Of a stretch of 64,000 bases of DNA, positions 26,459 to 31,333 are shown piece after piece (the stretch's first letter is position 1; every line of letters begins with the position of its first letter). Under the pieces are notes generated by a model. That model was not told the origin of the DNA, ran no database searches, and saw only the letters and a list, made by a program, of their open reading frames with translations. The position numbers and the translations under genes were made by a program. Source of the DNA: Chryseobacterium daecheongense (lineage in GTDB: Bacteria > Bacteroidota > Bacteroidia > Flavobacteriales > Weeksellaceae); assembly GCA_027920525.1 (NCBI GenBank), contig CP115858.1, forward strand, positions 1,674,001 to 1,738,000, in the 5' to 3' direction.

Positions 26459-27475
26459 TTATTTATTCCCCTTTTTGTCGTTAATATAATTATTGAGATG
26501 AAAATCAATACTTTCCTCGATAGGAATGAACTGATAATTCAGCTTTTGCTTAATTTTTTCGTTGGAAATGGTATTAAAGGATGTGATGGATTCAATATTA
26601 GATTTTGTAACCAGCTTTAATTGTGGAATCAGCCACCCCAAAAGGATATTGGCTATTCTTCCGGCATTAAGTTCTGCTTTAGACAATATTCTGGCATTTT
26701 TCAATCCCAGTTTTTTACGAATATAATTCCCTGTTTCGGCATATCGTTTATTCTCCGAGACCAAAATAAAGCGTTCTCCAAAAATATTATTTTCCATCAG
26801 CTCTACAGAAATCCGTGCAACATCCCGGACATCCACATAAGATGATCCCCCGGAAAAGGTAAAATTATTTTTTTCAAATGTCGAAAAAAGTTCACCACTG
26901 CTTTGGTTCCAGTTTCCACTTCCTATGATAATTGCTGGATTGATGATGATGGTTTTCAGGCCCTCGGCTGAAGCTCTCCATACTTCCATTTCAGATAAAT
27001 GTTTTGAAACGGCATAGGCAGGATGGTCAACCTTTGGATTAAAATCAGATTCTTCGTCAAGTTCCCCTTTTTCATTATAACCGTCCAAAACAGCCACAGA
27101 ACTCACATGAAGAAATTTAGTAACAGACGAACCTTCACAAGCAAATAAAAGATTTTCTGTACCCTTGATATTCGTATGGTACATTTCTTTCTCATCTTGT
27201 GGATGAAAGCTTACTTTTGCAGCACAATGATACACTTCTTCTACGCCTTTCAGGGCATCTTCTAAAGAGTTCATGTCATCAAAATCTACATCTACCCATT
27301 CAATTTTATTAAAAAAATCATCAGAGTTTTCTGTATAAAACTGATATGAATGCTTTACTTCGTTTAAATTACTTGTTCTCCTTTTGGCAGCGCGTACTTT
27401 TTTTCCTTTTTTTAAAAGTTCCAAAATAATTACACGACCCAAAATTCCGGTTGCTCCCGTTACAAAAACCATCAA
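26459..27475 (-). CDS. NAD-dependent epimerase/dehydratase (extended SDR)
   Basis: A 338-residue extended short-chain dehydrogenase. The N-terminal nucleotide motif is GATGILGRV (residues 7-15), with a VSSVAVL strand carrying the catalytic Ser region. YAVSK at 154-158 is the YxxxK active site. The family covers sugar epimerases, dihydroflavonol-type reductases and 3beta-HSD-like enzymes; the FHPQDEKEMYHTNIKGTENLL segment is closest to the latter two. It is immediately upstream of the acyl-CoA ligase, which hints at a lipid substrate. That is inference. Confidence 0.85.
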   Translation of the reverse strand: MMVFVTGATGILGRVIILELLKKGKKVRAAKRRTSNLNEVKHSYQFYTENSDDFFNKIEWVDVDFDDMNSLEDALKGVEEVYHCAAKVSFHPQDEKEMYHTNIKGTENLLFACEGSSVTKFLHVSSVAVLDGYNEKGELDEESDFNPKVDHPAYAVSKHLSEMEVWRASAEGLKTIIINPAIIIGSGNWNQSSGELFSTFEKNNFTFSGGSSYVDVRDVARISVELMENNIFGERFILVSENKRYAETGNYIRKKLGLKNARILSKAELNAGRIANILLGWLIPQLKLVTKSNIESITSFNTISNEKIKQKLNYQFIPIEESIDFHLNNYINDKKGNK

Positions 27476-27665
27476 TTATATTCCTACTTGGTTGTTGACT
27501 AAATTATAATAATATTTTTGATTCAGCAATTCTTCAATGTATTGAAAAATCATGTAAAATCCTATAATGCAAATTTGCGATTTTTAAAGGACAATTTTAC
27601 TTTAGTTTGTTATTTAATTACACTCAAACATTATAAGGTTATTGAAAAATACTCTTTTTCAGGTT

Positions 27666-27722
27666 TTGGCTTAAGCCAATTGTTTGATTAAAATGATAAA
27701 AACGGGCTAAAGCCCGTTTTTA
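27666..27722 (-). terminator. Terminator plus small palindrome downstream of the graspetide operon
   Basis: AAAACGGGCT-AA-AGCCCGTTTT (27699-27720) followed by T on either strand is a strong bidirectional terminator about 65 bases beyond the last ATP-grasp stop codon. A second element, TTGGCTTAAGCCAA at 27666-27679, is a perfect 14-bp palindrome. The rest of 27476-27784 is AT-rich with nothing else evident. Confidence 0.8.
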
Positions 27723-27784
27723 TATATTGAATTAACATGTGATGACAAATTGATAAATAGTGATTACATTAGTAATCACATATT

Positions 27785-28792
27785 CTAAGCTAAGACCATA
27801 TTATTTCTTCGTGGTGCTTTATCACATAAAAGATCAGCAATGCTCTTCGAAATAAGATTTTCTTCCGTAAGATTATCCAGCCAGAAAAATTCTCCGGCAC
27901 CATTAATTTCAATAAAATAATATTCATCTTCAGGAGAAACAATGATATCCATTGCTCCATAATCAACATTATATACATCCAGAAGCTCTAAAACTTTAGC
28001 TTCAATATCTTTGGGAAGATCTGTTCTTACCCATTTATCGATTAGGTTTACCCCATCCTTTCTCCAGTCTACTTTTGCATCTTCAAACTGTTGTGAATCA
28101 ATTTCGAACGCATATACATCCTGCCCTACTGCGGTTACTCTTAGCTCTCTTTTCTTTTCAATTTTCTTTTGGAATTGCATAGGGCAATACAACAGCGAAT
28201 CCAGATCATCCAGCTTGTCCTCTTTAATCACGTTGGTAAATACAACACTTTCCACCCCATCTTCATAAATAGCAAAACCCGATTGCATCTTTCCGATAAC
28301 ATTCTGATGTTTCAGGATAAAATTTCTGGCTTCTTCAGGATTATTGGTAATACAGGTTTCCGGAATTTTAAATCCTATCTTATCCGCAATTTTTAACTGC
28401 TCCTCTTTACTGTCTAATCTTCTGTAAACACTTGGCTTACCCAGAGCATATACATCTATGGATTCTAAAAATCCAAAAAGAGTTGTTCTTATTTCACCCA
28501 TCGCAGCACCATAGAATTTGGCATCTAACTCTTCCTTTAGCCCATCTCCCATATTGTAAGCTCTTCTGTACCACACCGCAGCAATATCATCTAAACGATG
28601 TTTAGCATCCGGAGTTTCGAGAATACTGATCCATTTTCCATCTTGGAAAGTAGTCGACAGTTTATTTTGTAAAGGATATAAATCGACATCAAAGCGGATG
28701 ACCTCAAAGTTATTTTTAATAATATACTCCGTTACTTTTTGTATTGAAAAATTGTCCCCGGTATGGGTGATGATTAAAATTTTGTTATTCAT
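27785..28792 (-). CDS. MdnC/MvdD-like ATP-grasp ligase (ester-forming graspetide maturase)
   Basis: A 335-residue ATP-grasp enzyme expected to form side-chain ester (lactone) bonds in a microviridin-type precursor. It begins ILIITHTGDNFSIQKV, then shows the family-typical FDVDLYP, AVWYRRAYN, YCPMQFQKKIEKKRELRVTAVG, VDWRKDGVN and VDYGAMDIIVSPEDEYYFIEINGAGEFFWLDNL blocks. These match cyanobacterial MdnC/MvdD better than MdnB. EINGAGEFFW at 295-304 is the metal/ATP-binding end of the fold; the usual EINP has Gly in place of Pro. It ends in an extra roughly 12-residue basic tail. It is last in the operon, and its start overlaps the upstream ligase gene by 8 bases. Confidence 0.88.
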   Translation of the reverse strand: MNNKILIITHTGDNFSIQKVTEYIIKNNFEVIRFDVDLYPLQNKLSTTFQDGKWISILETPDAKHRLDDIAAVWYRRAYNMGDGLKEELDAKFYGAAMGEIRTTLFGFLESIDVYALGKPSVYRRLDSKEEQLKIADKIGFKIPETCITNNPEEARNFILKHQNVIGKMQSGFAIYEDGVESVVFTNVIKEDKLDDLDSLLYCPMQFQKKIEKKRELRVTAVGQDVYAFEIDSQQFEDAKVDWRKDGVNLIDKWVRTDLPKDIEAKVLELLDVYNVDYGAMDIIVSPEDEYYFIEINGAGEFFWLDNLTEENLISKSIADLLCDKAPRRNNMVLA

Positions 28793-29741
28793 TGGTTTTC
28801 ATTCTTTTGATAAGGTTATCGGCAATTCTTTCCGCAATGGGAAAGTTAAGTTCTTTTTGTAACATTCCCCACTCTCCTTGTGGATTAACTTCAAGAAAAT
28901 AGTAATTTTCATCTCTTCCTTTGATCATATCGATCGCTCCCATGTAGAGCCCCATTTCTTTCATCATTAAGGTAAGAGAAGACTTAATGTCTTCCGGCAA
29001 TTCGTAAGCTGACCATGTATAATTTCCCTGATTAACACGCCAATCGGCATGTTCACTATTATTAATTTTACCCGTAAAAAACTCACCATCAACGTACATG
29101 ATCCTTAGTTCATATTCTTTTTCTATATACGGCTGAAAAATCATAGGACAATACGCAATATCTGCCAGTGATTCTAAATTATCTTCTCTTATAATCGTTG
29201 TGGAGAGCATATTTTCACCTCCCATAGATTTGGCAATAACTCCATGCAGCTTTGCCACAGCTTTTCCATTACAATATGTATGAAAGAAGGCTGTAATCTC
29301 TTCTTCATCGTTTGAGAAAAGTGTTTTCGGTATCGTTAATTTATTTTTTTTAGCAATTTTCAGTTGATATAATTTGTTTCCATCCGCTTTCTTTTCAGCT
29401 TCAAAAGGATTGATCCAGGGAACATCTTCAAGAGCCGTGTAGAGATTATAACGAAGATTTCCATATTCATTGATGAAAATTTTCACATAGTCATCATCAA
29501 GCTCTTCAGGAATACTGATACGCCATCCTTTTCTATGCCACACTGCCTTGATATCGCTGGAACGGAACGTATTTCCAAACTCGTCAGTCAATTCAAACGA
29601 ATGGTCAGTAATACTAATTTTCTGAAGGTAATTCAGGTGGTCTGAATTTAACCTGAAGTAGGGAATATTTTTAGAAGTAAGATATTCAAAGAAAATATCT
29701 ATAGTATAAAAGTCATTGGAGTGCGTGATACAAAGAATCAT
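28785..29741 (-). CDS. MdnB/MvdC-like ATP-grasp ligase (amide-forming graspetide maturase)
   Basis: A 318-residue ATP-grasp enzyme. The N-terminal ILCITHSNDFYTIDIFFEYL and FRLNSDHLNYL, the AVWHRKGWR segment, CPMIFQPYIEKEYELRIMYV and particularly EVNPQGEWGMLQKEL-x-FPIAERIAD (from residue 284) match the MdnB/MvdC branch. In microviridin synthesis that branch closes the lactam between the core Lys and an acidic residue after the esters are made. It is the first ligase gene after the precursors, preceded by a terminator-like hairpin (29760-29788). The next ligase overlaps it by 8 bases. Role assigned by homology; order of reactions inferred. Confidence 0.87.
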   Translation of the reverse strand: MILCITHSNDFYTIDIFFEYLTSKNIPYFRLNSDHLNYLQKISITDHSFELTDEFGNTFRSSDIKAVWHRKGWRISIPEELDDDYVKIFINEYGNLRYNLYTALEDVPWINPFEAEKKADGNKLYQLKIAKKNKLTIPKTLFSNDEEEITAFFHTYCNGKAVAKLHGVIAKSMGGENMLSTTIIREDNLESLADIAYCPMIFQPYIEKEYELRIMYVDGEFFTGKINNSEHADWRVNQGNYTWSAYELPEDIKSSLTLMMKEMGLYMGAIDMIKGRDENYYFLEVNPQGEWGMLQKELNFPIAERIADNLIKRMKTNE

Positions 29742-29759
29742 TTTTTGCTTTTTATTAAA

Positions 29760-29788
29760 AAAGGAAACTTAGAGTGTAAGTTTCCTTT
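29760..29788 (-). terminator. Attenuator-type hairpin between precursor and ligase genes
   Basis: A perfect 12-bp stem AAAGGAAACTTA / TAAGTTTCCTTT with a 5-base loop is followed on the minus strand by a T run. It lies between the second precursor's stop (29831) and the MdnB-like start (29741). With no new promoter obvious, it probably ends most transcripts after the precursors and lets a fraction continue into the ligases, giving excess substrate peptide. Confidence 0.7.
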
Positions 29789-29830
29789 CTTATGATTTTA
29801 GTATGTTTTATTTTTCTTTAAAACAATTCA

Positions 29831-30034
29831 CTATAATGGCACTGTTGGTGAATCATCATCTCCATCTGATGGATATTTCAATGTATGAGCCATATCCAAA
29901 GTTGGCTTAGTAACAACATCTCTTTCAGGAATTGTGATATCTGGTCCACCTCCTGTTACAGATTGAGGATCTTTCAGTTGTTTTTCAAGGAATGCTGCGA
30001 AAAATGGTTTTTTCTTTGAACTCTTGTTTTTCAT
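29831..30034 (-). CDS. Microviridin-type graspetide precursor 2
   Basis: A 67-residue precursor. A basic N-terminus leads into PFFAAFLEKQ (residues 10-19), the leader helix recognised by microviridin ATP-grasp ligases. A GGG (28-30) may be an export/protease cleavage site. The core near the C-terminus is TLKYPSD-G-D-D-D (51-61), which has the expected donors and acceptors: Thr51 to Asp57 and Ser56 to Asp59 esters, and Lys53 to Asp60 amide. The tail continues SPTVPL. Between GGG and core, residues 32-50 look like a degenerate form of the 8-residue repeat seen in precursor 1. The gene is 75 bases downstream of precursor 1. Confidence 0.9.
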   Translation of the reverse strand: MKNKSSKKKPFFAAFLEKQLKDPQSVTGGGPDITIPERDVVTKPTLDMAHTLKYPSDGDDDSPTVPL

Positions 30035-30109
30035 AATGTTTTAATTTGGTTTAACTTAGTATTTTGTTGAAATTATTAAAAATGATCGATTGATACAAAT
30101 GGATCTGAT

Positions 30110-30361
30110 CTATAATTCTATATGATCTAAAGGTCCACCTTCATCACTATCAGAAGGATATTTCAAGGTTACATTATCATTTCTTACCGTAGTAACATTG
30201 TCAACCAAAACGGAAGTGATATTATCCTTGGAAGGAATCGTAATATTGTCTGAATTAGGTGAAGTAATAATTTCCCCACCTCCGGTTACTTTCTCAGGCT
30301 CTTGAATTTGCTTCTCCAAAAAAGAAGCAAAGAATGGTTTTTTTAGTTTTTTTGGTTTCAT
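30110..30361 (-). CDS. Microviridin-type graspetide precursor 1 with DN[I/V]T repeats
   Basis: An 83-residue precursor. Leader motif PFFASFLEKQ at 9-18 and GGG at 27-29. The C-terminal core TLKYPSD-S-D-E at 65-74 has every canonical residue: Thr65 to Asp71 and Ser70 to Asp73 esters, and Lys67 to Glu74 amide. Between leader and core, Asp-Asn-Ile/Val-Thr recurs exactly every eight residues, at 38-41, 46-49, 54-57 and 62-65, the last running into the core threonine. The repeats carry further Thr/Ser and Asp side chains that could be substrates, or may be a spacer. It is the first gene of the operon, with a promoter candidate at 30392-30418. Confidence 0.9.
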   Translation of the reverse strand: MKPKKLKKPFFASFLEKQIQEPEKVTGGGEIITSPNSDNITIPSKDNITSVLVDNVTTVRNDNVTLKYPSDSDEGGPLDHIEL

Positions 30362-30391
30362 AAGTAAATATTTTTAACTTTTTTGATAAAT

Positions 30392-30418
30392 CTAAAGTAC
30401 AAAATTTCCCTTATGCAA
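30392..30418 (-). promoter_or_regulatory. Promoter candidate of the graspetide operon
   Basis: On the minus strand TTG (30416-30418) is followed after 16 bases by TACTTTAG (30392-30399). This fits the flavobacterial TTG-N17-23-TAnnTTTG pattern with one base mismatch and spacing one short. It lies 31 bases before the ATG of precursor 1. Confidence 0.5.
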
Positions 30419-30474
30419 AAAAATATATCACTCTTTTAAGAAAATTTTAACAATACAACAAACAGAGAATCAAA

Positions 30475-31254
30475 TCAATCCAAACCCAAAAAATTCTTTA
30501 CTACATGACTAAACTCTGTAGGGTTGTCAGCCTGTACCCAATGAGCTGCATTTTTAACAACGACAATTTTAGCCTTAGGAAACTGTTGTTTAATGGCAAA
30601 TTCATCCTGTGGGAGAATATAATTGGATTTTTCCCCGGAAATAAATAAAGTTTCACCCTCAAACACTCCAAATTTTATTGCATTGGATACAAACTCATTA
30701 TACTTTTCGGATAAGGTCTTAAGGTTAAACCTCCAATTTAGTTTTTTGTTATCATCCCAATATAAGTTCTTTGTTAAAAACTGAATGGTAGATTTCTCAG
30801 GAATATACTGACTAAGAACTGCTTCCACCTCATTTCTTGAACCTACATTATTGAAATCCACCGTTTCCAATGCTTTAATAATTCCCTGATGGTGTGGAGG
30901 ATATGCTTTTGGAGAAATGTCAACCACAATAAGTTTTTCTACCTTTTCCGGATACCTTATCGCAAATTGCATTACTGCTTTTCCACCTAAAGAATGTCCC
31001 AGAACATGAGCTTTCTCTATTCCGTAATGATCCATATAATGCGCAATATCATCAGCCAGATCATCATGTGACATACTCTCCGAATGAAAACTTCTTCCAT
31101 GATTTCTGAGGTCCAGTAAATAAACAGGAAGATACTCCCCTAAATCTTTTCCAAAGCTTCCCCAGTTGTCAAGCATTCCGAACAATCCGTGAAAGACCAA
31201 TAAAGGAGTAGACGATTTATCCTCGCCAAATATTTTTGAATGTAAAATTTCCAT
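30475..31254 (-). CDS. Alpha/beta hydrolase (YbfF-like esterase)
   Basis: A 259-residue alpha/beta hydrolase. I chose the ATG ending at 31254 (MEILHSKIFGED). The longer frame adds 22 residues with no family match. HGLFGMLDNW gives the oxyanion loop, GHSLGGKAVMQ the nucleophile elbow with catalytic Ser, and the last His lies in KNAAHWVQADNP. Closest in style to the YbfF esterase group acting on short acyl or malonyl/palmitoyl-CoA-like esters. It follows pdxJ by 79 bases on the same strand. A role in graspetide synthesis is not indicated. Confidence 0.82.
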   Translation of the reverse strand: MEILHSKIFGEDKSSTPLLVFHGLFGMLDNWGSFGKDLGEYLPVYLLDLRNHGRSFHSESMSHDDLADDIAHYMDHYGIEKAHVLGHSLGGKAVMQFAIRYPEKVEKLIVVDISPKAYPPHHQGIIKALETVDFNNVGSRNEVEAVLSQYIPEKSTIQFLTKNLYWDDNKKLNWRFNLKTLSEKYNEFVSNAIKFGVFEGETLFISGEKSNYILPQDEFAIKQQFPKAKIVVVKNAAHWVQADNPTEFSHVVKNFLGLD

Positions 31255-31333
31255 AATTTTTATATTAGATATTAGGTGGTAATTGCAATGTGAAATGATG
31301 AATATTCTATTAATTCCCAAAACACAGGAAATC

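Follow-up and report, generated by a model that had tools for sequence, protein, structure and literature searches.

Does a cluster of four genes in Chryseobacterium daecheongense make a plain microviridin, in which only a conserved core is cyclised, or a larger graspetide of several rings, and does it hold anything that has not been described before? The cluster lies in a stretch of 64,000 nucleotides (contig CP115858.1 of assembly GCA_027920525.1, positions 1,674,001 to 1,738,000, forward strand), here called the window, and consists of two precursor peptide genes, A1 and A2, followed by the genes of two ATP-grasp ligases, B (cdnB) and C (cdnC). Judging from the gene content, homology, module layout, selection, and genus-wide conservation observed here for the operon, and from the conservation of its hairpin, we are highly confident that the cluster as a whole is best explained as an operon for the biosynthesis of a multi-ring graspetide of the chryseoviridin type. 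The one new point is the strong conservation of the hairpin after the last precursor gene, of which we found no earlier description.

Precursors, ligases and predicted rings

All four genes are on the minus strand and are transcribed in the order A1, A2, ligase B, ligase C. The first-pass annotation, whose coordinates and reading frames are correct for all four, had described a flavobacterial graspetide operon with two precursors sharing a PFFAxFLEKQ leader and a TLKYPSD core, and with MdnB-like and MdnC-like ligases overlapping by 8 bases, and each of these points is borne out by the translations, the family matches and the overlap at 28785-28792. Both precursors pass the NCBIfam cut-off of 26 bits for microvirid_RiPP (NF033738; 68.8 bits for A1, 65.9 bits for A2) and that of Pfam Inhibitor_I10, while a search of the whole genome with the microvirid_RiPP model matched A1 and A2 and no third precursor. 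Their leaders are of the PFFAxFL type of the microviridin/chryseoviridin group of graspetides, and their cores, TLKYPSDSDE in A1 and TLKYPSDGDD in A2, follow the pattern TxKxPSDxD[DE]. The ligases are paralogous and represent the MvdC/MdnB and MvdD/MdnC types. For ligase B the best family is TIGR04185 (MvdC, 411.7 bits) and the nearest solved structures are 7m4s (AMdnB, E=9e-61) and 5ig8 (E=3e-51); for ligase C these are TIGR04184 (MvdD, 468.6 bits), 7mgv (CdnC, E=5e-187) and 5ig9 (E=3e-66). On homology, ligase C is the ortholog of the crystallised CdnC of the chryseoviridin pathway. The chryseoviridin kind of operon is upheld as well.

Chryseoviridins were reportedly described in 2021 as peptides of consecutive five- or six-residue rings with a microviridin-like core last. 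The same arrangement is found in the sequence pattern of the window, since A1 has four consecutive modules of the form T-x4-D (TSPNSD, TIPSKD, TSVLVD, TTVRND) and A2 two (TIPERD, TKPTLD), in each case after the GG motif and ahead of the core. The last module is separated from the core Thr by two residues in A1 rather than three, as it is in 61 of 189 precursors, namely 187 from 80 named loci of relatives (the best 80 of 94 confirmed; 79 titled Chryseobacterium and one a Weeksellaceae metagenome-assembled genome) plus A1 and A2 themselves. It could be argued that the operon is a plain microviridin one, with cyclisation, into three rings, confined to the TLKYPSDxD core and the T/D-rich repeats before it serving as a linker, given that leader and core alone satisfy the microviridin family models and that at least two modules, the A2 count, arose in 508 of 20,000 residue shuffles. 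The A2 modules alone are thus weak evidence. However, at least four modules, the A1 count, were reached in only 11 of 20,000 shuffles, and every one of the 187 precursors has two (20), three (89) or four (78) modules before its core. Module length is also nearly constant, 621 of the 625 modules in the 189 precursors having six residues and four having five, in a search pattern that permitted these two lengths only. Finally, there is an ortholog of CdnC, the enzyme that is said to esterify such modules. We consider a plain microviridin operon very improbable.

Ligases of the CdnC/MdnC type form esters between Thr or Ser and Asp or Glu, those of the CdnB/MdnB type form a lactam with Lys, and the products inhibit serine proteases. 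From this family knowledge a route can be proposed for the chryseoviridin-type operon. A1 and A2 would be made in excess over the enzymes, CdnC would bind the PFFAxFLEKQ leader and form side-chain esters, one per T-x4-D module and two more in the core (T-D and S-D of TLKYPSDxD), and CdnB would close the core lactam from Lys to Asp or Glu. The A1 product is predicted to have four simple rings and a microviridin cage, amounting to about seven dehydrations (4+2+1), and the A2 product two rings and the cage, about five (2+2+1). The tricyclic product with a loss of three waters, expected in the first-pass annotation, would therefore be an undercount, as the modules precede the core in both precursors. 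Cleavage might take place after GG, perhaps through an unlinked C39-type exporter; the genome has three C39 peptidase regions, all of them outside the window, and a C39 exporter within the cluster was rejected on that ground. The product probably inhibits serine proteases, and every characterised graspetide is a protease inhibitor according to a survey of 47 species related to C. gregarium, in which chryseoviridin loci were traced and the enzyme that cleaves graspetides is given as unknown (PMC8939145).

Some observations weigh against the chryseoviridin-type reading. Both ligases score slightly under the curated NCBIfam equivalog cut-offs (425 for TIGR04185, 475 for TIGR04184), and between the flanking genes there is no gene for an exporter or a protease. 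The same survey names the extra linkages of the variable part 'lactam' and later 'lactone bond' (PMC8939145); we take the T-D modules as esters. In addition, A1 shows only nonsynonymous change (dN 0.005, dS 0) relative to the same-species locus L037, which is so close to the window that its figures are too small for use.

The last point concerns selection, for which the ratio of nonsynonymous to synonymous substitution (dN/dS) was calculated by the Nei-Gojobori method between the window genes and their relatives in L037, L038 and L039. Compared with L038 and L039 it was about 0.09 for A1, 0.04-0.05 for A2, 0.04-0.05 for B and 0.03 for C (about 0.09, 0.04, 0.05 and 0.03 against L039 alone), although dS of B and C is near saturation, being above 1. 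All four genes are under purifying selection relative to these two loci. Could the cluster nevertheless be a decaying remnant without function? Its distribution in the genus is patchy, cdnC having been matched at E<=1e-80 in 120 of 148 sampled Chryseobacterium genomes (among them the genome of the window and another of its species) and missed in 28, but four open frames under purifying selection leave this idea hardly any probability.

The first-pass annotation had also raised two features as possibly new. One was the ending after TLKYPSD, which is SDEGG in A1 and GDDDS in A2, in the place where the microviridin core ends in an aromatic WEE. Among the 187 precursors GDDD is the commonest ending (74), followed by GDED (25) and SDEG (17), so that both are ordinary and new core chemistry in them was rejected. 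Chryseobacterium had been named in that annotation as a source of graspetides (chryseoviridin), and the four precursors of C. gregarium (L110) end in GDED, SDED, SDEG and GDDD. The other feature was the repeat layout, which does not stand as new either, given that four-module precursors make up 78 of the 187, that the 4+2 order of the window is found again in 6 of the 80 loci, and that PMC8939145 already gives a consensus, TxxxxDxxxTxKxPSDxD[DE], to which it adds between one and three linkages. These endings and this layout are the norm in Chryseobacterium, and knowing so prevents their being mistaken for novelty. Indeed, neither the class, nor the genomic position, nor the layout of the cluster is new, because the survey gives the same two flanking genes (alpha/beta hydrolase and epimerase) for chryseoviridin loci, the same consensus, and duplication and loss of such precursor segments (PMC8939145).

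A conserved hairpin between A2 and cdnB

The intergenic stretch between A2 and cdnB folds at -20.2 kcal/mol, compared with -2.9 kcal/mol for the gap between A1 and A2. It appears that such a structure is general at this place. All 78 loci that were scored (the 80 minus L047 and L094) have a best hairpin of less than -9 kcal/mol at this position. The hairpin pattern itself follows the last precursor at a distance of no more than 400 bases in all 79 precursor-bearing loci, L047 included, and was found in none of 108 gaps between precursors. In the stems of 78 loci and of the window (79 sequences, 60 of them distinct, so that counts are of sequences and not of independent events), pairs 9 and 10, which lie outside the fixed pattern, are standard without exception even though their bases vary: pair 9 is A-T in 51, G-C in 25 and G-T in 3, and pair 10 is A-T in 55, G-T in 21 and G-C in 3. 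At least five T occur in the eight bases after the hairpin arm in 77 of 79 sequences. Thus the stable stem and the U-run of an intrinsic terminator are both present.

From this form we read the hairpin as a leaky terminator keeping precursor mRNA above enzyme mRNA. It would probably end most transcripts after A2, leaving little enzyme mRNA per precursor mRNA, and it thereby offers a simple account of how a four-gene operon with no regulator gene could provide much substrate and little enzyme. Several details weigh against this reading. The outer pairing fades, being standard in 69, 34, 30 and 47 of the 79 sequences at pairs 11, 12, 13 and 14, respectively; the T-run of the window pairs into the stem itself; a consensus terminator scan calls the site at 29760-29788 on the plus strand only and not on the minus strand; and the inner stem, with an identity of about 99%, is more conserved than a plain terminator needs.

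This last detail is the main argument for a different role, namely that the hairpin is the site of a specific regulator, either an RNA-binding protein or a protein on a DNA palindrome, or that it controls translation of cdnB. Over 77 loci the ungapped identity is about 99% in the inner stem, about 41% in the 30 bases before it and about 58% over 20 bases beyond the T-run. With 2-6 loop bases allowed, the pattern has a single place in the window's own genome, which would suit a dedicated site and at the same time counts against a global operator, and the start of cdnB is about 20 nt downstream. On the other hand, the T-run and the paired changes in the outer stem agree with an RNA hairpin shaped like a terminator, and the invariance of the inner stem is partly built into the search pattern, yet no precursor-bearing locus failed that pattern. 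We regard a regulator site or control of translation as possible but unlikely. A related proposal, in which a genus-wide RNA element peculiar to chryseoviridin operons (GGAAACTTA-loop-TAAGTTTCC followed by a T-run) would be a regulated attenuator with its near-invariant stem read by a dedicated factor, appears quite doubtful to us; if true, the element would set the precursor-to-enzyme ratio and be more than a passive terminator.

The hairpin hardly occurs outside genomes with cdnC. When 3-9 free bases were allowed, the pattern was present somewhere in the genome in 109 of the 120 genomes with cdnC and in 2 of the 28 without it (counted by hand), three genomes having it at two places. The two exceptions, G021 and G124, are fragmented assemblies. 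Eleven genomes with cdnC gave no match to the exact pattern, of which some named loci show variants of one base. A search of positions 27000-31000 against Rfam at E<=1 gave six matches, all under their gathering scores. A literature search for terminators in operons of graspetides, microviridins or other ribosomally synthesised and post-translationally modified peptides (RiPPs) showed no description among the papers listed; in the retrieved part of PMC13097080 the word 'terminator' is a species name, and the main text of PMC8939145 contains neither 'terminator' nor 'attenuat'.

Genomic site and distribution

The features of the cluster and its surroundings are listed in Table 1.

Table 1. Genes and hairpins of the cluster and its flanks, in positions of the window
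Feature	Position	Strand	Description
Precursor A1	30361-30110	minus	83 amino acids; leader PFFASFLEKQ, GGG motif, four T-x4-D modules, core TLKYPSDSDE
Precursor A2	30034-29831	minus	67 amino acids; leader PFFAAFLEKQ, GGG motif, two T-x4-D modules, core TLKYPSDGDDD
CdnB-like ATP-grasp ligase B (MdnB/MvdC type), presumed lactam former	29741-28785	minus	318 amino acids; family and structure matches
CdnC-like ATP-grasp ligase C (MdnC/MvdD type), presumed ester former	28792-27785	minus	335 amino acids; family and structure matches
Hairpin with T-run, terminator-like, between A2 and cdnB	29760-29788	minus	stem AAAGGAAACTTA-loop-TAAGTTTCCTTT
Terminator-like hairpin 3' of cdnC	27696-27723	minus	12 pairs, T tail
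Alpha/beta hydrolase, upstream flank	30475-31320	minus	in 148/148 sampled genus genomes, cluster present or not
NAD-dependent epimerase/dehydratase, downstream flank	26459-27475	minus	in 147/148 sampled genus genomes

The cluster of the window lies between the alpha/beta hydrolase and epimerase genes, the site of chryseoviridin loci. Of the 80 named loci, 79 have the hydrolase upstream, 73 the epimerase downstream and 72 both. Three of the eight loci without both are cut (L085, L088 and L094, the last of which is at a contig end and is the only named locus free of precursors), and in five (L089, L095, L098, L111 and L115) there is no epimerase within the fetched flank. Flank positions were compared by hand for the 28 genomes without cdnC (20 listed, eight obtained by elimination). 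Hydrolase and epimerase are neighbours, 123-585 bp apart, in 26 of them; in G021 they are on different contigs, and G124 gave no epimerase match. The 26 gaps (L120-L145) are free of the leader motif, the core motif and the hairpin pattern, and because these empty gaps hold no trace of the cluster, it is mostly either cleanly present or cleanly absent at one place. In some genomes with cdnC the epimerase is kilobases further on (e.g., G141). Separately, the cdnC match of one relative, at G038:C1:1041974-1042792, covers residues 62-334 only and has one in-frame TGA, which may reflect a recent break in the gene or a fault of the assembly.

In a sample of the family, 46 of 197 genomes had a CdnB match at E<=1e-70, every one of them in a single genus out of 33, Chryseobacterium. 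A recent plasmid origin was rejected, in view of this confinement and of the flanks shared in 72 of the 80 loci, and a megablast search of the operon against 72,556 plasmid records gave no match. As a counterexample, the cluster of C. panacisoli (L084) is carried, with the usual two flanks, by a 2.3 Mb scaffold whose record calls it a plasmid.

An alpha/beta hydrolase is listed as a possible modifying enzyme in PMC8939145. Such a role was rejected for the flanking hydrolase, whose identity with the hydrolase family of the survey is left uncompared: it looks like a mere neighbour, because it was matched in all 148 genomes, the 28 without cdnC among them.

Comparison with known systems

The grasp-with-SPASM systems (TIGR04192/TIGR04193) share with the cluster an ATP-grasp peptide maturase and differ from it in that this pairs with a SPASM protein and in their unrelated precursors. 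Two such loci are present elsewhere in the same genome, less than 20 kb apart. The first (L146, G000:C1:4427500-4432500) encodes an ATP-grasp protein (TIGR04192, 341 bits) and a SPASM protein (TIGR04193, 390 bits), together with a short TIGR04139-like peptide that falls narrowly below its cut-off; downstream is an open reading frame that by eye resembles a serine recombinase. In the second (L147, G000:C1:4446000-4451500) the corresponding scores are 283 and 327 bits, and a GG-containing peptide of 74 amino acids upstream matched no NCBIfam model at E<=0.001.

With the cyanobacterial microviridin system (MdnA/B/C) the cluster has in common the PFFA motif of the leader, the TxKYPSD core and paired ATP-grasp ligases. 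In contrast to microviridin, the window has an acidic GDDD or SDEG end instead of WEE, additional modules, and no acetyltransferase or transporter gene between its flanking genes. In the database, relatives of A1 and A2 are called 'microviridin/marinostatin family tricyclic proteinase inhibitor'. Chryseoviridin is placed among the graspetides with repeating macrocyclic units in PMC12291112.

The chryseoviridin cluster of C. gregarium DSM 19109 (L110) shares the leader, the T-x4-D modules with the microviridin-like core, the order of CdnB and then CdnC, with CdnC 81% identical, and the hairpin before cdnB. It consists of four precursors, cdnB and cdnC (structure 7MGV), whereas the window has two precursors of the same build with other module sequences. 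The two-precursor 4+2 layout is shared with C. paridis YIM B02567 (L038), the aligned parts being 96% identical for A2 and 90% for A1; C. paridis differs in a number of residues and in its A1, whose C-terminal tail is longer. The cluster of the window is thus one further sequence pair in a published, genus-wide family.

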